Origin: Shinella pollutisoli
Lineage (GTDB): Bacteria > Pseudomonadota > Alphaproteobacteria > Rhizobiales > Rhizobiaceae
Assembly: GCF_024609765.1 (NCBI RefSeq)
Contig: NZ_JANFDG010000026.1
Location: 1 to 64,000 of the forward strand
Direction: 5' to 3'
DNA length: 64,000 nt
A program made the position numbers and the translations under genes. Below the pieces are notes generated by a model. The model saw only the letters and a list, made by a program, of their open reading frames with translations, ran no database searches and was not told the origin of the DNA. Positions 20,221-62,933 of the stretch are shown here, piece after piece. The first letter of the stretch is position 1. The number at the start of each line of letters is the position of its first letter.

Positions 20221-20919
<699 letters not shown>

Positions 20920-50836: not shown

Positions 50837-51226
50837 CTATTCTTCGTCGCCGAGCAGATCGAGAAGACTGGTTTGTCGCGGGTCCTTCGGCCTTGCAAAG
50901 GCCTTGGGTGAGCGCCTTTTCCCACGCCGAACAATCTTGTCGACCGAGCTTTCCGTGCAACCGAGCGCCTTGGCGATGTCGCGGTTGCTCATGCCGGCCT
51001 GCCTATACCGGCCGGCCCGGAGCTCGCGGGCGAGCGGAACCCGTATATATCCGCCTGGATATCGCTTGGAAAGCCGGGTGGCGATGTCGGAACCGACGAT
51101 GGTGGTCAGCTCGGATCTGGCGATGTCGCCGGGCACGAACAGGCGCAGCCCGCCATAGTGCTCGACCAGCGTCACGAAATCGGCTTCGCCGAGAATGTCC
51201 AGCAGCTCGTTAGTGAGGTCGGCCAT
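50837..51226 (-). CDS. Mor/C-type late activator, 129 aa
   Basis: Mor/C family DNA-binding activator: N-terminal dimerisation part, the beta-strand region LRLFVPGDIA...YPGGYIRVPLARELRAGRYRQ, and a helix-turn-helix (MSNRDIAKALGCTESSVDKIV). Family members activate middle (Mor) or late (C) Mu promoters by binding dyads near -40. Only one such gene is seen. ATG 51226 has GGAGG five bases upstream; a GTG at 51238 is less likely. Confidence 0.92.
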   Translation of the reverse strand: MADLTNELLDILGEADFVTLVEHYGGLRLFVPGDIARSELTTIVGSDIATRLSKRYPGGYIRVPLARELRAGRYRQAGMSNRDIAKALGCTESSVDKIVRRGKRRSPKAFARPKDPRQTSLLDLLGDEE

Positions 51227-51422
51227 GCCGGCCTCCACCCAGTTGCGTCTCCAGGACGATGAGACGTAGCGTCAGCACGCGCAGCCGCTCTTCGAGCGAG
51301 ATCCGCTTGTGGGCATGAGGGCGGAGTCTCGCTATCCGCTCGCGTAGGCGCTCGCGATCCTGCAGTGCCCGCTCGTGCTCTGCCTGGAGCTGCCAGTTGA
51401 AAAGCGGAAGCGGAGTCGTCAT
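51210..51422 (-). CDS. Small basic helical phage protein, 70 aa
   Basis: Two predicted helices (QAEHERALQDRERLRERIARL and LEERLRVLTLRLIVLETQL), very Arg-rich. Overlaps the Mor/C-type gene by 17 bases. No family recognised; perhaps a regulator or DNA-associated peptide. Confidence 0.6.
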   Translation of the reverse strand: MTTPLPLFNWQLQAEHERALQDRERLRERIARLRPHAHKRISLEERLRVLTLRLIVLETQLGGGRHGRPH

Positions 51423-53038: not shown

Positions 53039-53254
53039 TCACTCCATCATCTGCATGCCGCAACCGCCGTCGCAGGCCATGTGCAAGTGATTGCGCGCGC
53101 CGGCAAGCGTGGCCCGGATGGTGCCACCGCAGCGCGGGCAGACGCAGCGGGCGCGCTTCAGGCCCTTCTTGTTCATCACGCTCTTGAGCTTCATGCCGGT
53201 GGCGAGGACCTCGGCGATCCCCTTCGTGTCGATTTTTTGCACTGGCCTGGTCAT
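53039..53254 (-). CDS. Small zinc-ribbon phage protein, 71 aa
   Basis: Basic N-terminus (GMKLKSVMNKKGLKRARC), then CVCPRCGG and CDGGCGMQM as a likely zinc ribbon, followed by a short end. ATG overlaps GemA stop. Role unknown; such proteins often bind RNA polymerase or DNA. Confidence 0.7.
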   Translation of the reverse strand: MTRPVQKIDTKGIAEVLATGMKLKSVMNKKGLKRARCVCPRCGGTIRATLAGARNHLHMACDGGCGMQMME

Positions 53255-53907
53255 GTCCGCTTTCCCTTCTTCGCCGCGCGGACCTCTTCGCCGAGCGCGT
53301 TCATGACTGCCTGCCAGTCCTTGGGCTTCAGATCGCCGAGCCACGCACGGCGAACGCCGAGGATCGAATAGACGACCTCGTCGAAACCGCGGCGCAGGAT
53401 CAGATCGACGCCCGGATGGAGGATGCGCCATTGCGCCCAGGCGATCTTGGCGCCATCGGCTGCGAGCCACTCCTGGCCGCAGGTCGTGCCGAACCGGACA
53501 CCCGCCTCCCGCTTCAGCCACGCCTTGAGCCCCTCGACGGCGGCGCGGCCATCGGCCGGGTCGTGGAGGAAGCGCGTATCGTCGACGCCGGTCTGATCCT
53601 TGACGAAGCCAAGCATGGCCCTGTCGTCGCGGTCGTGGATGACGCCGAGGTTCCAACCGGCGATCCAGAGCGCCTGCAATTTTTTCGCGTATTTGCCGGT
53701 GAGCTGGCGTCGGCCGGCCGGCCGAGCGTCGGCCGAGGCAAAGCCGAGCCGGCGCAGCTCCGCCAGCACGGCGTCCTGCTGGGCCGGCTTCATCAGCGAC
53801 AGCCGCGGCTCGCCCGTCACGCGGACATAGAGCGACCGCTTGTCATCGTCCTCGGTGATGCCGAGTTGGCGGAAGCCGGTATGGATGGCACGAATTGCGG
53901 TGCTCAC
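53251..53907 (-). CDS. GemA-like regulatory protein (DUF1018, Mu gp16), 218 aa
   Basis: Mu gp16/GemA family: AIRAIHTGFRQLGITEDDDKRSLYVRVTGEPRLSLM and the ELRRLGF helix. In Mu, GemA affects host gene expression and DNA topology-related functions. Normal position before the late activator. Confidence 0.88.
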   Translation of the reverse strand: MSTAIRAIHTGFRQLGITEDDDKRSLYVRVTGEPRLSLMKPAQQDAVLAELRRLGFASADARPAGRRQLTGKYAKKLQALWIAGWNLGVIHDRDDRAMLGFVKDQTGVDDTRFLHDPADGRAAVEGLKAWLKREAGVRFGTTCGQEWLAADGAKIAWAQWRILHPGVDLILRRGFDEVVYSILGVRRAWLGDLKPKDWQAVMNALGEEVRAAKKGKRT

Positions 53908-54383
53908 AGTCCCGCCTCCTCAAGCAAGGTTGCCGCCTGCTCCGAGATCTCGGGCCGGAAAAAGCCGAGCCGGATTTCCAGCGGAGACGAAAAGCCACCG
54001 ACCTCGTCCCGGCCGGTCAGCAGCGGCGTGTCGATGCAGGCTGCGAGGCAAGTTGCCAGCCGGCGCTCCAGCGGCTCGACGGTCGGAACGTCGACGCCCA
54101 TCTCGCGGTCGATCGCGCGATCCAGGTCCTCGCCGCCGAGAATCCGGTTTTCCGGTATCTGGCCGGCGAATATCCCCCCGCAGGCAATGTCGATCGCCCG
54201 CGTCTGGCGGTCGCGCAGGTGGCGATAGCGGGCGGCATCCTTCACGAGCTGCTCGTGCAGGTAATCGGCACATCGAGAGCAAAGGTCGTTATCGTGCCAG
54301 CAGAGGGGCTGACCGTCGATCTCCATCCCGGGTTCGATATGGTCGATGCCGCACTCGCGGCATTTGCGAGCCGTGGCCGTCAT
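53904..54383 (-). CDS. Unrecognised phage protein with Cys cluster, 159 aa
   Basis: Starts with CRECGIDHIEPGM and CSRCADYLHEQLV, two Cys pairs that could form a zinc site, then a helical domain (LATCLAACIDTPLL, FFRPEISEQAATLLEEAGL). Overlaps neighbours at both ends. I cannot name it. Confidence 0.65.
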   Translation of the reverse strand: MTATARKCRECGIDHIEPGMEIDGQPLCWHDNDLCSRCADYLHEQLVKDAARYRHLRDRQTRAIDIACGGIFAGQIPENRILGGEDLDRAIDREMGVDVPTVEPLERRLATCLAACIDTPLLTGRDEVGGFSSPLEIRLGFFRPEISEQAATLLEEAGL

Positions 54384-54718
54384 GCGCGGTTTTCCCTGTC
54401 TTTGAGCCTGTAGCCCTGGCCCCAGACGGTCTCGATAGCGACACCGTGGAGCTGAAGCTTGCGGCGGATTTTGCAGACGAGGACATCGACGATCTTCTCT
54501 TCGGGTTCCTCCATCCGGTCGCTGTAGAGCACGGACATCAGGTAGCTCTTTGTGGCGAGTTCCCTCTTCATCAGGGCGCCGACCAGCCGGCTTTCGGTCG
54601 GCGTCAGCCCCCACTCGACCGGGGGATGCCACTCGGCCACGAGCAATTCCTCCAACTGGCGGACGCGTTCGGCGAGGCTCTCGTTCTTGGCGATCAGGGC
54701 TGCGACCATTTCATCCAT
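54380..54718 (-). CDS. CtrA-like winged-helix protein, receiver-less, 112 aa
   Basis: Residues 1-27 form a coiled coil (IAKNESLAERVRQLEELLV). Residues 34-110 are an OmpR-type winged helix with MEEPEEKIVDVLVCKIRRKL and IETVWGQGYRL, near-identical to the host CtrA block [20 protein letters not shown] and [11 protein letters not shown]. No receiver domain. It may bind CtrA sites independently of phosphorylation, dimerised by the coil. ATG 54718 overlaps the upstream gene stop. Confidence 0.85.
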   Translation of the reverse strand: MDEMVAALIAKNESLAERVRQLEELLVAEWHPPVEWGLTPTESRLVGALMKRELATKSYLMSVLYSDRMEEPEEKIVDVLVCKIRRKLQLHGVAIETVWGQGYRLKDRENRA

Positions 54719-55082
54719 GGCTGGCCGCCTTTCGGCGATAGCTTTGCCGATCGGCAAGCCGATAGCCCACGAAACGCTCACCGGTGATCACGACACCGAA
54801 CGGTCCCACCTTGGCCCGAAGTTTGCTTACGTGGCTCTCGACGACGGAGCTCGCAGGAGACTCCCCGAAGAGGAGCCGGTCGCCATAGAGCGCTTGGTAG
54901 AGCATGTCCTTGGTGACGATGTCGCGCACTGTCAAAGCGGCGAAGACGCGCCGTTCGGCGTTGGTGAGGCTCCACTCGACCGGAATGTTGACATCGTCGG
55001 GAACGAGGAGAGCTTCCAGCTCCCTCACACGCTGACGCAGAACCTCAATCTCGTCCTGCTGTGCCTGAATGAGGTCATCCAC
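54711..55082 (-). CDS. CtrA-like winged-helix protein, paralogue, 123 aa
   Basis: Same layout as the next gene: coiled coil (IEVLRQRVRELEALLV), then PVEWSLTNAERRVFAALTVRD, TKDMLYQALYGDR and VVESHVSKLRAKV, ending FVGYRLADR. The recognition helix is more divergent from CtrA (ESPASSVVESHVSKLR against [15 protein letters not shown]), so its DNA target may differ. GTG start. The two genes look like a tandem duplication. Confidence 0.8.
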   Translation of the reverse strand: MDDLIQAQQDEIEVLRQRVRELEALLVPDDVNIPVEWSLTNAERRVFAALTVRDIVTKDMLYQALYGDRLLFGESPASSVVESHVSKLRAKVGPFGVVITGERFVGYRLADRQSYRRKAASHG

Positions 55083-55887
55083 GGGCCTTCCTCCTGTTCA
55101 TGAAGAGGACGGAGGCGTAAGCGCGCCAGAAGGGAACCTTGCGCTCGATCGCGAAGCGCTTGGCCTCCCTTTCCAGCTCCTCCCCTTTCACCCTGATGAT
55201 CAGCGAAATGCGGTCGTCGTCGATCTCGCCCGCATACTCTTTCGCGAAAACAAGGCATTCGACGCCTCGGATCATGTGGGCGGAAACGGGTGCGGCACCC
55301 GATCTCACGCAAATGTCCAGAACACGGCGGGCGCCTACCGCGTAGCGCCGGCTCACCAGGCTGGCGATGGTGGAGATCGCCATCGTGTCGCCCGGGCGAA
55401 AGCGGGAGTACGGCGGTGGGTTCTTGAGGATGGTGACACCCGCTCGCTCGCAGACTTGGGCGATCGTCATCGCGTCCTCGTCACCGGCGGCGACGAGGGC
55501 GGAATGGAGCTGCGTCGGCGTCACGGAGATGCGGTCGCGGTTATGCCGAACGAACGCCCCGGCCCGCTTCTCCTCTTCCGGGGCTGCGACGACCAGCACA
55601 GGTATCAGCGGGATACCGCCGTGCGTGACCGCGGCGATCGCCGTGTGCTGGCCGTCGAGCACGTCGAGCCGCTCGTCGACGCGCGCAACGACCGGCGGCT
55701 TGAAGGCCGTCCAATCCCATTCCGAGACGATTTTGCGGATGAGACGGATCGACCGTTCGGAGAGGTCGCGTTGGTAGCGCGGATCGATGAAGAGCGACGC
55801 GGGCGGCACGATCTCGATTTCCGGCGGTGTTCCGGGCGCAGTCGCCGGTACGAGGTCGCCGAGCTGGAGAGGAGCGATCTGTCTCAT
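55075..55887 (-). CDS. ParB-like nuclease-domain protein, 270 aa
   Basis: ParB/Srx-like fold: IDPRYQRDLSERSIRLIRKI, PPVVARVDERLDVLDGQHTAIAAV (the DGQHT box replaces GERR), then RNRDRISVTPTQL. No clear helix-turn-helix for parS binding. Such proteins are common in transposable phages of rhizobia; role unknown. The C-terminal 130 residues are helical. Confidence 0.8.
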   Translation of the reverse strand: MRQIAPLQLGDLVPATAPGTPPEIEIVPPASLFIDPRYQRDLSERSIRLIRKIVSEWDWTAFKPPVVARVDERLDVLDGQHTAIAAVTHGGIPLIPVLVVAAPEEEKRAGAFVRHNRDRISVTPTQLHSALVAAGDEDAMTIAQVCERAGVTILKNPPPYSRFRPGDTMAISTIASLVSRRYAVGARRVLDICVRSGAAPVSAHMIRGVECLVFAKEYAGEIDDDRISLIIRVKGEELEREAKRFAIERKVPFWRAYASVLFMNRRKARG

Positions 55888-57064: not shown

Positions 57065-57718
57065 TCACGCCTTGGCGAGGTCGATCGTCACCGGGCGCCA
57101 CCCTTCGGTGACGCTATCGCGACGATAGAACCGCATGTACTGCTTGGTGCCGGTGACGCGCATCGAATCGCGGATCGCGTCCATGGCCCGCTGCCAGCGC
57201 TCGTCGGCGATGTCCTGGCGTAGCAGCATGAAGATCTCGGCCCGGTTGATCCTGCCCTCCTTGTCGGTATTGAAGGCACGCGTCACGATTGACTGGATTT
57301 CCGGCCGGGCCTCGGCCGACCATTCGTTGAGGCACTCGTCGATCAGGCTCTTGGCGATATGCAGCTCCGGCCCGAAATCGATCTGGTCGGCAACCTGCAC
57401 CTGGACCTTCATGAGGCCGTCGAAGGTCTGATAGGTCCGGTTGCCCTTCACGCCGCCGATCCTCGCGCCGTATTCCTGCGCGAGAAGCGCGTCGAGGTCG
57501 CCGAGATCGACATTGCTGTAGCCGAGGAAGCGGCTGATCTGTGCGTTGAGCGCGATGGCATGCCCCATGATCTTGCGCACCACCTCGTCCTGCAGCTTGT
57601 CCTGCGGCTTGATGAGGGAAAGCGGCACCAGGGCGCCCTTGGCGTCCGGCATGTATTCCTTGCCGTTGACGATGACGACGCCGGTTTCGGGCTGTTCTTC
57701 GAGAATGCAGGTGTCCAT
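57065..57718 (-). CDS. DUF3164 protein of Mu-like phages, 217 aa
   Basis: DUF3164 signatures: GKEYMPDAKGALVPLSLIKPQDKLQDEVVRKI and NRAEIFMLLRQDIADERWQRAMDAI. Usual gene after the B protein block in transposable phages; function unknown, possibly DNA-metabolism related. Confidence 0.87.
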   Translation of the reverse strand: MDTCILEEQPETGVVIVNGKEYMPDAKGALVPLSLIKPQDKLQDEVVRKIMGHAIALNAQISRFLGYSNVDLGDLDALLAQEYGARIGGVKGNRTYQTFDGLMKVQVQVADQIDFGPELHIAKSLIDECLNEWSAEARPEIQSIVTRAFNTDKEGRINRAEIFMLLRQDIADERWQRAMDAIRDSMRVTGTKQYMRFYRRDSVTEGWRPVTIDLAKA

Positions 57719-58030: not shown

Positions 58031-58314
58031 GACTTCCTCCCCTTGTCGAAATCGACCTGGACGATCTTGCTTTCCAGGGCGGCCGTCGCCTCGCTTTCGA
58101 GCGCGCGAGCGATTGCGTTCGCTTCTCCGGAACGAAGGATGGCGATCTCGCGCTCCAGGAGGGAGGCGAGCTTTAGGGCGTGCGAAAGCTCGATGACGAT
58201 GTCCCGCGCCTTGTGGGCCGGCAGCGCCTTGCCTTCTGCGGTGTACGGCAGGATGCTGCCGGTCACGTTCATGATGGTGGCGCTGAGTGTGGTGTCGTAG
58301 ACGGGGGACATCAT
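58027..58314 (-). CDS. Unrecognised small phage protein, 95 aa
   Basis: First ATG 58314 overlaps the MuB stop (ATGA). Middle is a helical bundle (HKARDIVIELSHALKLASLLEREIAIL). No family recognised. Confidence 0.6.
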   Translation of the reverse strand: MMSPVYDTTLSATIMNVTGSILPYTAEGKALPAHKARDIVIELSHALKLASLLEREIAILRSGEANAIARALESEATAALESKIVQVDFDKGRKS

Positions 58315-59333
58315 GCCAGTTCCCCCATGTCGCGGTTGCGCCAGGCCGCCGTCAGGTGCTTGAGCGAGATATCCTCGCCGGCACCGAGGGCGGACACGGC
58401 GGCCGCCCGGACCGTGCGGTCGATGTTTCGCAGCGCGCCCGGCTTGGAAGCGATGCCCGAAAGGAACCTGACGCAATCGGCATCCTCGATCCCCCAGGCG
58501 TCGATCAGCATACGGGCGTCTCCCGCAGGATCGCGTTCCGTCGCCAGGCGCAGGTCGAAGCGCGTCAGGACCTGGGCGCGGCTGGCGATCGAGCCGCGAT
58601 CCTTCAGGAAAGCCGTGCCTGTGTCCTCGTTACCGATCAGGGTGACGCCGCACTTGTAAATGTCTACGAAGTGCCGGAGCTGGTTGATCGCCTCGGGAAC
58701 GAGATTCTGCGCCTCGTCGACGATGAGCAGCGAACCTTCGCCGATCCGTTGGAGCTTGCGGCCGATGGCCCGCACGAGGCGGGCCGGATTGTGTTCGTGC
58801 ACGTCGAGTTCCATCGCCAGCTCGACCAGCATGCCGTGGACGGTTTTCGTATGGGGGCTCACCGTCGCGATCCAGCAATGCGGGCGTGTGTCGACGAAGT
58901 GCCGCGCGGCGGTCGTCTTGCCCGCGCCGGAGGGCAGCACGACCATCGTGAAACCCGCGGTAAGCTGCGACTGGAGCAGAACGTTGTAGACCTCGGCGCC
59001 GGTCGCCGTGCGAATGAACTTCGGCGATACGGGCAGGCTGGCGGCGATGCCCGCGCTCTCCTCCAGTGCATCCAGCCAGTTGTTGACGTCGTCGTTGACG
59101 TTGGCGAGCACACCCGGATAGTTCCCGTTGGACCATTGGCTGAAGGTGCCGTCTTTCACGCCGGTACGGCGGCTGACCTCGGCCTTGTTCCAGCCGTGTT
59201 CGCGGGCGACGTCGATGACGCGGGAAAGCAGCTTCCGCCACCGCTCGATCTCGGCGGGACCGTGCTTGGATACGAAGTCCTGCGCCGGGGCGGGAAACTT
59301 CCATTCCGGAATTGTGTTCATAGGCTTTTTCAT
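58311..59333 (-). CDS. Transposition target ATPase MuB, 340 aa
   Basis: AAA+ ATPase that picks target DNA and stimulates the transposase. N-terminal helix-turn-helix at about 46-70 (EHGWNKAEVSRRTGVKDGTF); Walker A LPSGAGKTT (133-141) and Walker B LLIVDEAQN at about 197-205. ATG 59333 has AAGGA eight bases upstream; a second ATG at 59321 would drop four residues. Confidence 0.93.
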   Translation of the reverse strand: MKKPMNTIPEWKFPAPAQDFVSKHGPAEIERWRKLLSRVIDVAREHGWNKAEVSRRTGVKDGTFSQWSNGNYPGVLANVNDDVNNWLDALEESAGIAASLPVSPKFIRTATGAEVYNVLLQSQLTAGFTMVVLPSGAGKTTAARHFVDTRPHCWIATVSPHTKTVHGMLVELAMELDVHEHNPARLVRAIGRKLQRIGEGSLLIVDEAQNLVPEAINQLRHFVDIYKCGVTLIGNEDTGTAFLKDRGSIASRAQVLTRFDLRLATERDPAGDARMLIDAWGIEDADCVRFLSGIASKPGALRNIDRTVRAAAVSALGAGEDISLKHLTAAWRNRDMGELA

Positions 59334-59399: not shown

Positions 59400-61400
59400 C
59401 TACTTCTCGGCCCTGTGCTTGCGGCCCGGCGCGATAGCTGCCGGTCGATCCCCTTGCGGGAATGGGAGGATGGCGGCGTCGCCGCCTGCCAGGCGCGCGA
59501 GCCCCCGGCTTAAATTGTCCTGGTATTGATGCGCGTCGATCGTCTCGACCGGAGCGGCCTGCCGGCGCGTGATGAGGCGCGTGACCTTCGGCCGGGCGGT
59601 TTTCGGCGCCGGGGCGTCGGCGCGCTCGCCGCGCCTCATCAACTCCTTCAACTGCACGTCGCCGAGCCGGCGCGCAGCGTCCTTCTGCGCCTTCAGGGAC
59701 TTCGCGGCCGCGCTCTCCGCACGGGCTGTCTCTCGGGCGGACGCCTGGCAGTCGAAGCCGGTCTTGGCGACGCAGGCAGCGTCGCAGATAAACCGATCGT
59801 CCTTGTCGTAGACCTTGACCGTCCCGTGCAGATCGGAAGGATCGAAACGCACCGTCAGCTTCCTGCCGATCCACTCGTTCAGCTCGCGCGCGTGGTAGCG
59901 GTTGCCGAAGAGATGGACGGCGCCTGCGGGCTTGCGTGCGGTCACGGTCTCGGCGGTGAGCATCCAAAGGGACCGCTGCATGGGGCTGGCGAAGCGCACG
60001 AGGTTTGCCGGATCGGCCATGCTCTCCGCGAAGGTGGCGTCGAAGCTGCGGCCCCTGGCGGTCTCGGTCTCGCGGCCGATGCGGGCATTGTGTTCGGCGA
60101 TCCGGGCGGCGACGTGCTTTTCGAGCTGCTCGATCGGCACGGCCCACTTGCCGTAGTTCTCCGGCTTGTGCGCCGGACTGCGCCCCGTATAGGCGCCGGC
60201 CATGTCGGGATGTTTGCAGATTTCCTCGGCGAGGTCGCGCCAGGCGCGCTCGATCGGCTTGGATCGGCCGGAATAGGGCTTCACGAAGCGGCCCTCGATG
60301 CCGAGCGTCTTCAGGAGGCCCGAGACCTCGTCCTCCGTGATCTTGAAACGGAAACGGCGTCCTGTCTTTCCCGATATCTTCTTCGAGGCGAAGGCCTTTC
60401 CGTTGTCCATGTAGAGACGCTCGGGAATGCCGTGTTCCTCGACCATCCGGCCGACGATGGTGCGGACCGCCTCCCAGGTCTCGGCCTCGGTCAACGTCCA
60501 TGAGAGGATCTTGCGCGAATAGAGGTCCTGCGTCGCCATGAGATAGACGCGGGTCGGCTTGTCGCGCCCGGGGAACTGCACATGCAGGTCGAGCTTGTGA
60601 CCGTCCGTATTGACATACTGCATCGCCATCAGATGGGCGACCGAGCGCTGCTGGGCGGGGAGGAGCTTGCGCGCCTCCTCCTTGCCCTTGCGGGCGAGGA
60701 TCTGTACGGCGCGGGGAACCTTGACGTTCATTCGCCGGCGCAGGGCCCACTCGGCGGGGATCGGCGCCCAGCCCTTCTCCTTTGCAACCTCGACCATGCG
60801 GCGGTAGCAGGAGGAGAACGTCGCCCCCTCTGGCCGCAGATAGTCGGAGGCAAGCACATCCCAGGCGTCGGGATGGCATTCCGCCGTCTGTGTCTCCTCG
60901 CCGTTCGCGGCTGCGCTCTCTGGGGCCAGCGCGGCAAGCCAGTCCTGCCGCGCCTTTCCCTCGACCTTCTTTCGCCATTCGTAGAGCGACGAGCGGGCGA
61001 TCTCGAACTTGTCTTCGCAGAAGGCCGTGGCCTGCCTGGCGCTGATACCGGCCGCGCGCATGCCGTCCCAGGCGGTCAGCACGTCGAGACGCCTCTGGCA
61101 GACGGCGCGCTGCGCATCCGTCAGGGCTTCGAAGCGCCGCCAAAGCAGGTTTGAATCCGCCTTTTCGGGGATGGCGGGTGCGGCTTCGAGAAAGGCAAGC
61201 TTCGAGCGCGCCGCCTCGGGCAGCAGGGAATAGTGGTACTCGTAGCCGCCGCCACCATCCCGGCCTGAGAGCTTCCGGCATTTTGTCGTGTTCAGGCGCC
61301 ATCCCTCGCGGATGACGATCCTGGCGAGGCTTGGCACCGCTGCCGGCAGGCCGGGCAGCTTCGCGGCGGCAAGCTCCGCGAGGGTGAACCACTCCTTCAT
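59400..61400 (-). CDS. Transposase A (MuA-like), 666 aa
   Basis: DDE recombinase that cuts and joins the prophage ends. N-terminal HTH_Tnp-Mu domains (FTLAELAAAKLPGLPA; a Leu-rich HTH_Mu_2-like part at about 95-145), integrase core with D266 (YVNTDGHKLD), D332 (LYMDNGKAF) and E384 (IERAWRDL), spaced as in Mu, then the Mu-transposase C-terminal domain (FGNRYHARELNEWIGRKLTV). All catalytic residues are present. Confidence 0.96.
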   Translation of the reverse strand: MKEWFTLAELAAAKLPGLPAAVPSLARIVIREGWRLNTTKCRKLSGRDGGGGYEYHYSLLPEAARSKLAFLEAAPAIPEKADSNLLWRRFEALTDAQRAVCQRRLDVLTAWDGMRAAGISARQATAFCEDKFEIARSSLYEWRKKVEGKARQDWLAALAPESAAANGEETQTAECHPDAWDVLASDYLRPEGATFSSCYRRMVEVAKEKGWAPIPAEWALRRRMNVKVPRAVQILARKGKEEARKLLPAQQRSVAHLMAMQYVNTDGHKLDLHVQFPGRDKPTRVYLMATQDLYSRKILSWTLTEAETWEAVRTIVGRMVEEHGIPERLYMDNGKAFASKKISGKTGRRFRFKITEDEVSGLLKTLGIEGRFVKPYSGRSKPIERAWRDLAEEICKHPDMAGAYTGRSPAHKPENYGKWAVPIEQLEKHVAARIAEHNARIGRETETARGRSFDATFAESMADPANLVRFASPMQRSLWMLTAETVTARKPAGAVHLFGNRYHARELNEWIGRKLTVRFDPSDLHGTVKVYDKDDRFICDAACVAKTGFDCQASARETARAESAAAKSLKAQKDAARRLGDVQLKELMRRGERADAPAPKTARPKVTRLITRRQAAPVETIDAHQYQDNLSRGLARLAGGDAAILPFPQGDRPAAIAPGRKHRAEK

Positions 61401-61624: not shown

Positions 61625-62085
61625 CAGCGTTCTCCGCGCCGGATGCGGACGGGCGTCGCCGTCAGCTTGCGGATCTCGGCGGTGATGGCCCGTTGCTCCT
61701 GGCGGAGCCGCTCGACTTCCGCGAGCCGTGCCTCGTCGCCCTGAAGCAGGAGAAGGCCGTCCTCGGAAACGATGACGTCCCAAAGCCACACGGCGCCCGT
61801 CGCCCGCACGAAGGCCTTGAACCGCACCAAACTGACGTCGTGGCCTTCCTTGCTTTCGGCCGTATAGGCGTCGAGCGAGGCCTTGGAGATGGAGGGCAGG
61901 CCGAGATAGGTCGCCATGCGGGCCGCGATCGTCGGGCGGTCGAAGGGGCATTCGCGGATGGCGCGGGCCATCTCGCGCCGCAGGCGGCTGCGGAAACGCG
62001 CGATGTCGATCCGCTCGACGGGCGAGCGGGTCGGATAGACCGGCTCGGCGAAGAAATCGGCCTGGGCGGGGTCGGGCTTTGTCAT
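61624..62085 (-). CDS. Unrecognised early phage protein, 153 aa
   Basis: Helix-turn-helix-like core (AIRECPFDRPTIAARMATYLGLPSISKASLDAYTA) suggests DNA binding, followed by a helical C-terminus rich in Arg/Glu. Between ParB-like and MuA-linked genes. Could be an early regulator; similar proteins occur beside MuA in rhizobial phages as I recall. Confidence 0.65.
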   Translation of the reverse strand: MTKPDPAQADFFAEPVYPTRSPVERIDIARFRSRLRREMARAIRECPFDRPTIAARMATYLGLPSISKASLDAYTAESKEGHDVSLVRFKAFVRATGAVWLWDVIVSEDGLLLLQGDEARLAEVERLRQEQRAITAEIRKLTATPVRIRRGER

Positions 62086-62933
62086 GCCGCTTTCCCTTCC
62101 CGCTTGATCTCGCCCATGAGGTCGGCAAGGCCGGTATCCGGCTCGACGCCGATATGGACGAGGAATTCGTGCCGCGTCTGCTCGCTGGCGCCATCCCAGG
62201 CGGCGATGAGCTTGTTCAGGAGCGCCGCCTGCAGGTCGACCGCCGGCTTCTCCGGCTTCAGCCAGGAGAGCGCCAGCTTCAGGTCCGGCTTTTCCTTCAG
62301 CGCGGCGGCGATGCGCAGCTGGTCGTCGGCCGGCAGCTTTGCAAGCTTCAGGAGCTTCGACTGGTCCGTCTCCGCTTCCGTGCCGCGCACGGCCGCGCGT
62401 AGGATCGGGTGCAGGTTCTGGCCGATGCGGTTGGCGCGCTTATACTTGTCGGGACTGAAGCCGAGGCGCTCTTGAACGCTCTTTGCAAGCTCGCGTCCGT
62501 TGGAGAATACCGAAGGGGCATAATGCCCCTTCGGGTCACGATCACTGTTTTTCTCGATCTTTCCGTGCTGATCTTCCCAAAGCTCACGGTATTTCAGCAC
62601 GAAGATGGCGCGGTCGAGGGCGGAAAGCTCGTTGCGATAGAGGTTCTCAGCAATCTCCATCATCTGCGCCTCGGCGCCGTCCGCCTGCACCACGAGCGCG
62701 TCCAACTCCTCCCAACCGATAATGTCGGCGGCGGCGCAGCGGTGCCCGCCTACGATCAGGGTGAAGGGCGTGGCGCCCTTGTTCTTCGCGGGCGTGCGGC
62801 GCACCGTGATAGGTGAAATCTGCCCGCGCTCCTCGAAGGATGCGCCGATGGCGGCCGCTACGTCCATGTCCACCGGGCGCAGGCGCTCGCCGCGGAAGAG
62901 GTCTTTCAGTTTCAGTCGGATGAGTTCGGCCAT
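62082..62933 (-). CDS. ParB-like protein, 283 aa
   Basis: N-terminal ParB/Srx nuclease-like domain: LRPVDMDVAAAIGASFEERGQISPITVRR and VGGHRCAAADIIGWEELDALVV, with an NLYRNELSALDRA helix as in chromosomal ParB. A helix-turn-helix (LAKSVQERLGFSPDKYKRAN) follows. Resembles plasmid/chromosome partition ParB, but no ParA is seen. May bind phage DNA or the ends. Confidence 0.83.
   Translation of the reverse strand: MAELIRLKLKDLFRGERLRPVDMDVAAAIGASFEERGQISPITVRRTPAKNKGATPFTLIVGGHRCAAADIIGWEELDALVVQADGAEAQMMEIAENLYRNELSALDRAIFVLKYRELWEDQHGKIEKNSDRDPKGHYAPSVFSNGRELAKSVQERLGFSPDKYKRANRIGQNLHPILRAAVRGTEAETDQSKLLKLAKLPADDQLRIAAALKEKPDLKLALSWLKPEKPAVDLQAALLNKLIAAWDGASEQTRHEFLVHIGVEPDTGLADLMGEIKREGKAA

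Follow-up and report, generated by a model that had tools for sequence, protein, structure and literature searches.

In many Alphaproteobacteria, cell cycle and motility are under the control of CtrA, a regulator that phosphorylation normally switches. Phages of these bacteria are linked to it in several described systems. Roseobacter phage RDJLPhi1 encodes a CtrA that has kept its DNA-binding part but not the receiver (PMC6363796). The same source models unphosphorylated CtrA as the activator of gafA in Rhodobacter, and the phosphorylation state of CtrA seems to matter for infection by phage Jorvik (PMC10589892); a phosphorylation-free CtrA head could therefore matter to phages. Host CtrA also acts on phage promoters, a relationship termed "lytic deferment" (PMC9437464); that paper mentions a GcrA homologue in phiCbK, and the terms "phage-encoded" and "receiver" are absent from its text.

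In the window, as we call the whole 64,000-nucleotide stretch of DNA analysed, a Mu-like prophage carries two adjacent genes, A and B. Like RDJLPhi1 gp37, A is a phage-borne CtrA-type DNA-binding domain (DBD) with no receiver. Unlike A, gp37 has a short N-terminus without a coil pattern and is sister to host CtrA in our tree (99/94), whereas A branches off further out, carries a coil and is accompanied by a second head and a ParB-like gene; the RDJLPhi1 stretch examined (L028) gave no ParB-like match. The lytic-deferment system likewise ties phages of Alphaproteobacteria to CtrA sites, but there host CtrA sits on phage DNA, while in our case the CtrA-type head is itself a phage product, and the genomes that carry it are not enriched in CtrA boxes. 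A receiver-less phage CtrA is thus known (PMC6363796); the coil-mounted CtrA head, the paired Rem/FtcR-type head and the ParB-like linkage did not turn up in our searches of the open-access literature, in which few subscription papers are covered. The relevant features are:

54380..54718, minus strand: gene A, 112 aa, ATG start; predicted coiled-coil helix 2-26 followed by an OmpR-type winged helix; CtrA-type reading head KIVDVLVCKIRRKL, wing ETVWGQGY
54711..55082, minus strand: gene B, 123 aa, GTG start; chassis as in A; reading head VVESHVSKLRAK / ERFVGY, nearest host head that of a Rem/FtcR-type regulator
55075..55887, minus strand: ParB-like gene, 270 aa; phrog_1033; frequent partner of the A/B gene family
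53904..54383, minus strand: gene after A, 159 aa; all PHROG matches weak
53251..53907, minus strand: GemA (Mu early gene)
57065..57718, minus strand: DUF3164, Mu-type early region
58311..59333, minus strand: MuB-like transposition protein
59400..61400, minus strand: MuA-like transposase
50837..51238, minus strand: Mor/C-like late activator; phrog_836; Pfam Mor 12.3 bits, below cut-off
20221..20919, minus strand: host CtrA, full length, 232 aa, in the same window, for comparison

The earlier note on this DNA had reported two adjacent genes, and A and B are indeed overlapping minus-strand open reading frames (ORFs) at the coordinates that it gave. The ParB-like gene overlaps B by 8 bases, B overlaps A by 8 bases and A overlaps the 159-aa gene by 4 bases, which suggests a single operon. 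The pair lies between DUF3164 and GemA, and terminase and portal genes are also found in the prophage around it; together with the MuA-like, MuB-like and Mor/C-like genes, these neighbours mark the surroundings of A and B as the early region of a prophage of the Mu kind. Just past the window end come a divergent repressor and a Ner-like gene, both read from the sequence. By its Mor/C-like gene the prophage seems to have a late activator of its own, and we rejected that role for A and B because this gene, whose Pfam Mor match is below cut-off, is already present. The ParB-like protein matched phrog_1033 (E 5.8e-14) and fell 0.1 bit short of the DUF6551 cut-off (26.7 against 26.8 bits); it had no sequence relative in the PDB at E 0.01, and defence-system models at E 0.01 matched neither it nor A nor B. 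Upstream of its transposase, the prophage has a second ParB-like gene (phrog_3264; window 62082-62933).

Both proteins exceeded the PF00486 cut-off of 26.2 bits (A 46 bits, B 30.2 bits). Structure prediction with AlphaFold gave a helix at residues 2-26 followed by a winged helix in A (pLDDT 85.7) and in B (pLDDT 77.7), as in the short coil and OmpR-type winged helix first described for the two. Foldseek matched A to the OmpR-type DBDs of SaeR, AdeR, ArlR and PhoB in the PDB. The description of A as receiver-less was likewise borne out: in its 112 residues the helix stands where a receiver would be, and there is no phospho-acceptor aspartate. A heptad pattern read from the sequence (L8-N12-L15-V19-L22-L26) runs along this coil, through which A probably dimerises; a heptad count across the family, which took two leucines as fixed anchors and omits nine rows that were too short and one unmatched row, carries no weight here. 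B also lacks a receiver and is a prophage gene, unlike Rem/FtcR proteins, which are defined by a receiver plus an OmpR-type DBD encoded in a flagellar cluster. The DBDs of A and B are 44% identical.

Against the NCBIfam CtrA model (cut-off 350 bits), host CtrA scored 426 bits and A 47.8 bits, CtrA still outscoring the other eight models listed for A. Outside phage-type genes, host CtrA was also the top match of A in a whole-genome search (E 3e-10). Seven presumed base- and wing-contact positions were mapped onto the heads from the numbering of PhoB. At these positions A has K, L, C, K, R, T and W against K, F, C, K, R, T and W in CtrA, six of seven identical. A and CtrA share the DNA-contact residues of the reading head and wing, but CtrA has a receiver with a phospho-aspartate where A has a coil. 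The earlier note had spoken of two copies of the host CtrA DBD. The sequence blocks that it quoted are present in A, host CtrA is encoded in the same window, no closer kinship of A to an unrelated regulator emerged, and the contact residues were retained save for the exchange of L for F. The head of A is therefore CtrA-type, as proposed, but A is not a copy of this host's CtrA: the two DBDs are 48% identical, compared with 76% between the host's and that of a Rickettsia-titled record, and AU tests place A outside the host CtrA clade. For B the claim fell altogether, as B lacks the KI.DV..CK and TVWG signatures and is 29% identical to the CtrA DBD.

The top non-phage match of B in the genome was a response regulator at C10:75906-76124 (E 1.2e-4), whose neighbours, named by eye from their sequences, are hook, flagellin, motor and flagellar export genes; we take this regulator to be of the Rem/FtcR type. 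FtcR-like genes occur in motility clusters of Rhizobiales (PMC8639532). With A matching CtrA best and B the flagellar-cluster regulator, the pair bears two different heads. B and this regulator share 39% DBD identity, but the regulator has a receiver, whereas B has none and carries a coil. B-type heads have the motifs VESH.SKLR.K and RF.GY in common with the regulator. Nine of ten such heads are closest to it among 11 host regulators, and the ten match it at H198 (10/10), S200 (9/10), K201 (7/10), R203 (9/10) and R219 (10/10), with G or S at position 217 and mostly N at position 193. Joining eight such rows (VESH-type hereafter) and the flagellar regulator in one clade fitted no worse than the free tree (logL 1.6 higher, p-AU 0.53), and grouping B alone with the regulator gave p-AU 0.22. 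The free tree itself put six coil-bearing VESH rows on the CtrA side (99/97), apart from the flagellar regulator, and grouped two zinc-ribbon VESH rows with other regulators. The rem promoter of Sinorhizobium contains a CtrA motif, yet CtrA did not bind it (PMC4433202), so the two heads need not aim at one cascade.

We see about an even chance that A and B act early and free of phosphorylation on the host, by occupying its CtrA promoters and perhaps its Rem/FtcR promoters. Judging from their position in the early operon, they would be made early, A as a CtrA head and B as a Rem/FtcR-type head, each receiver-less on a coiled-coil dimerisation helix. Because no phosphorylation would be needed, both could bind the sites of the host regulators once the early operon is expressed. 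Their probable targets would then be the CtrA promoters of the host's cell-cycle and flagellar genes, and perhaps its flagellar Rem/FtcR promoters, where they would compete with or replace the host regulators, in concert with the ParB-like protein of the same operon. The effect of A on host sites could be either to block or to force.

Near-CtrA boxes in the window were found only at 18-23 kb, around ctrA and its neighbours and outside the phage genes. Three exact boxes, against none for five controls, occurred in 48 kb of host sequence selected to surround ctrA and the flagellar cluster. One of them (C10:76657; L168:10657) lies 92 bases upstream of the Rem/FtcR-type regulator, and two (C10:83228 and C10:83253; L168:17228 and 17253) precede a flagellin gene by 117 and 142 bases. 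Over the whole host genome the excess was small, with 31 CtrA boxes against 22 controls. Among 30 records of module-bearing phages, exact boxes occurred in one, at two sites, and the control AATT-N7-AATT, of the same composition as the CtrA site TTAA-N7-TTAA, also gave two sites, in two of the 30 records. A set of 67 loci (568,501 bases), from which 14 near copies had been removed by hand and loci at or below 55% G+C left out, and in which L131, L134 and L136 represent this genome, contained 2 exact boxes against 0-1 for five controls and 20 boxes with at most one mismatch against 10-56, that is, no enrichment over permuted controls at either level. A half-site test with TTAAC-N6-TTAAC at up to two mismatches found 60 sites, a number equalled or exceeded in 19 of 30 permutations (the motif itself among them). 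The strict box overlooks degenerate sites, for example GTAAC-N6-TTAAC (PMC6363796). A recurrent near-box at about position 1460 in L183, L193 and L195 was discarded as unremarkable, since it falls in the A+T-rich repressor/cro region of related phages.

Because module-bearing phage genomes are not enriched in exact boxes, host sites are the likelier targets, and the simplest fit to the sequences would be that host boxes, not phage boxes, hold the residues of A in place. It is unlikely, though worth real weight, that A and B instead regulate the phage's own promoters, with A reading CtrA-like boxes of the prophage control region and thereby tying phage genes to the host's cell-cycle stage or freeing them from it. 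This prophage does contain one exact box, TTAATGGGACGTTAA, at C19:65125-65139 (L136:1125-1139), about 1.1 kb past the window end, just behind the divergent repressor and about 44 bases upstream of a 68-aa ORF. The receiver-less CtrA gene of RDJLPhi1 is located between gafA and rcc01866 homologues (PMC6363796), and host CtrA binds the promoters of several phages (PMC9437464). Such own-promoter control is at odds, however, with the number of exact boxes in the 30 records, equal to that of the control, with the lack of enrichment in the 67 loci, and with the Mor/C-like activator that the phage already has. Of two roles initially suggested for these proteins, occupying host CtrA sites appears to fit better than gating phage genes; the latter is weakened by the box counts in module-bearing phages and retains the one exact box in this prophage.

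Searches of viral contigs found 22 loci for A, 11 with a B-type alignment and 155 with an A-type alignment, of which the best 80 were used. With six same-contig doubles taken out, the A-type and B-type alignment searches together yielded 84 loci, 68 of them with a ParB-like match and 16 with none. As these searches used reading-head patterns, we repeated them with an alignment of the ParB-like protein, itself built from loci originally found by A- or B-type searches. Among the best 80 of 167 relatives, 56 loci had a winged-helix gene; in 55 of these 56 the winged helix starts on the same strand 77-111 bases past the end of the ParB-like ORF, and in the remaining one both parts form a single ORF. 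With head genes below 40 bits excluded, the 56 loci hold 68 head genes: 53 CtrA-type, 13 VESH (B-type) and 2 other. By locus, 41 have the CtrA-type only, 10 both heads, 3 VESH only (among them L284, whose contig ends there) and 2 the CtrA-type plus another. The gene is absent from 24 of the 80 loci, mostly those with more divergent ParB-like proteins; the next gene, where called, looks unrelated, and in one of the 24, L299, the sequence runs on for 91 bases beyond the ParB-like gene and then stops. A distant ParB-like protein (27.8%) is encoded by Ochrobactrum phage POI1126, where the gene that follows looks unlike this head family. Single ORFs matching the ParB-like model in front and a CtrA-type head behind (L184:621-1268, L214:1-1149, identical to L312, and L251:3143-4354) hint at a physical link and may be gene fusions or sequencing frameshifts.

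Such fused ORFs, on three contigs, would also suit a reading in which A and B form a heterodimer, or join the ParB-like protein, on composite sites, so that neither head alone mimics a host regulator. The common chassis of A and B (44% DBD identity), their 8-base gene overlap and the 10 of 56 loci with both heads are consistent with it. We nevertheless find it improbable: 41 of the 56 loci carry a lone CtrA-type gene and 3 only the B-type, and in a mixed coil the polar Asn12 of A would stand opposite Ile12 of B, which should disfavour pairing.

The same heads recur on a second chassis, with a zinc-ribbon-like N-terminus (CPCCGQ and similar) and the ParB-like gene downstream. It carries both heads in L143 and L254, the CtrA-type alone in L141, L147 and L148, and VESH in L134 and L178; in L134 (contig C8 of this genome, G000) the CtrA-type partner is a short frame and may be truncated. 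This genome has the module at three places: the window prophage, C5 and C8. At G000 C5:79065-79774 (L131) the two heads are swapped, the CtrA-type one coming first; the flanking genes look like methyltransferases by eye, and no window-like Mu genes were found in that prophage. In L183, L193 and L195 the module follows divergent repressor and cro-like genes (by eye), again a position that suggests early expression. A survey of 297 genomes drawn from a larger group returned mainly host CtrA among the matches listed, together with short-frame coil-type genes in G000, G106, G153, G081, G159 and G124. The matches listed in a scan of genome contigs were likewise mostly host CtrA and entered none of the counts. 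Extra coil plus winged-helix genes with heads of neither the CtrA nor the VESH type were seen at L232:4288, L213:512, L234:3048 and L258:3588, and a second, degenerate CtrA-type head (GIVKVIVCNLRKKL) behind a different N-terminal part at L034:6072-6854 and L296:916-1698.

Among described phage proteins, A matched phrog_31800 ("transcriptional regulator" in PHROGs) at E 2.5e-13. The phages collection contained relatives of A in 31 records, 29 of them from Rhodobacter, Roseobacter or Paracoccus phages, annotated as CtrA, CzcR-like, helix-turn-helix or transcriptional regulator; at least 80% of A was covered in only 3 of the 31. The pairing of coil and ParB-like gene was not annotated in the A-type stretches of RDJLPhi1, RcSalem and vB_PmaS-R3, nor in RDJL3. 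Phage RDJL3 encodes a 279-aa "CzcR-like response regulator" (L342:2258-3097) whose CtrA-type head lies in the middle, between N- and C-terminal parts of another kind, and in which no receiver is evident.

The proposal that A occupies host CtrA promoters draws on what the family has retained. We compared 34 phage CtrA-type heads, 33 of them mutually less than 80% identical plus A of the window. Their identity to host CtrA averaged 96% at the seven contact positions and 36% at the other 68, and all 34 were closest to CtrA among 11 host regulators. Because the class was defined by K/R193, C200 and K/H/N201, these three columns are partly circular; at positions outside the definition, F198 was kept in 30, T217 in 33 and W219 in 32 of the 34 heads. 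It is very improbable that A and B are ordinary OmpR-fold phage regulators with unrelated specificities of their own, their likeness to CtrA being one of fold. The PF00486 family is very large and OmpR-type DBDs are numerous among the Foldseek matches, but K193, C200 and W219, present in 34, 34 and 32 of the 34 phage heads (the first two partly by definition), are missing from all 10 other host regulators, and the tree puts the CtrA-type rows with CtrA (99/96).

That tree was built from 61 DBDs and few columns (88); it left out the copies L012, L014, L015, L016 and L137, the too divergent L030, three G000 rows present under other names and two rows removed for length or divergence. One of its 12 "host CtrA" rows, L027, comes from a viral contig (3300035695_000233; L027/L255) that encodes a full-length CtrA-like protein with an extra C-terminal part. 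The 99/96 branch has the CtrA-type phage heads and host CtrA on one side; host CtrA formed a single group (97/81), with two RDJL phages as its sister (99/94). The phage CtrA-type heads are a separate lineage, not recent copies. Given the breadth of the host CtrA set, which includes records titled Rickettsia, Megaira, Holospora, Acetobacteraceae and others, the split between phage and host heads looks old, while rooting and long branches leave its direction either way. A recent theft of the end of this host's ctrA, which the near identity of two short blocks might suggest, has next to no probability, since the AU tests rejected A with its own host's CtrA (p-AU 5e-5) and A inside the host CtrA clade (p-AU 3.5e-4), and the DBD identity of 48% is far from the 76% of the Rickettsia-titled CtrA.

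The occupation of host promoters by A and B may be part of a wider picture, which we put forward tentatively, as a possibility. An old, separate phage lineage of phosphorylation-free heads for CtrA and Rem/FtcR, mounted on interchangeable coil and zinc-ribbon dimerisation modules and made early with a ParB-like partner, would form a lytic-cycle takeover switch for the cell cycle and motility, its CtrA-type branch having split off before the sampled host CtrAs diverged. If true, this would be a phage family that keeps the contacts of CtrA and drops its switch, so that phages act directly on the cell-cycle programme. It would explain the anonymous "helix-turn-helix" genes of many prophages, and small constitutive binders of CtrA sites, perhaps also of Rem/FtcR sites, could serve as tools. 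Whether phages set the cell-cycle stage of their host would then become a simple binding and expression test.
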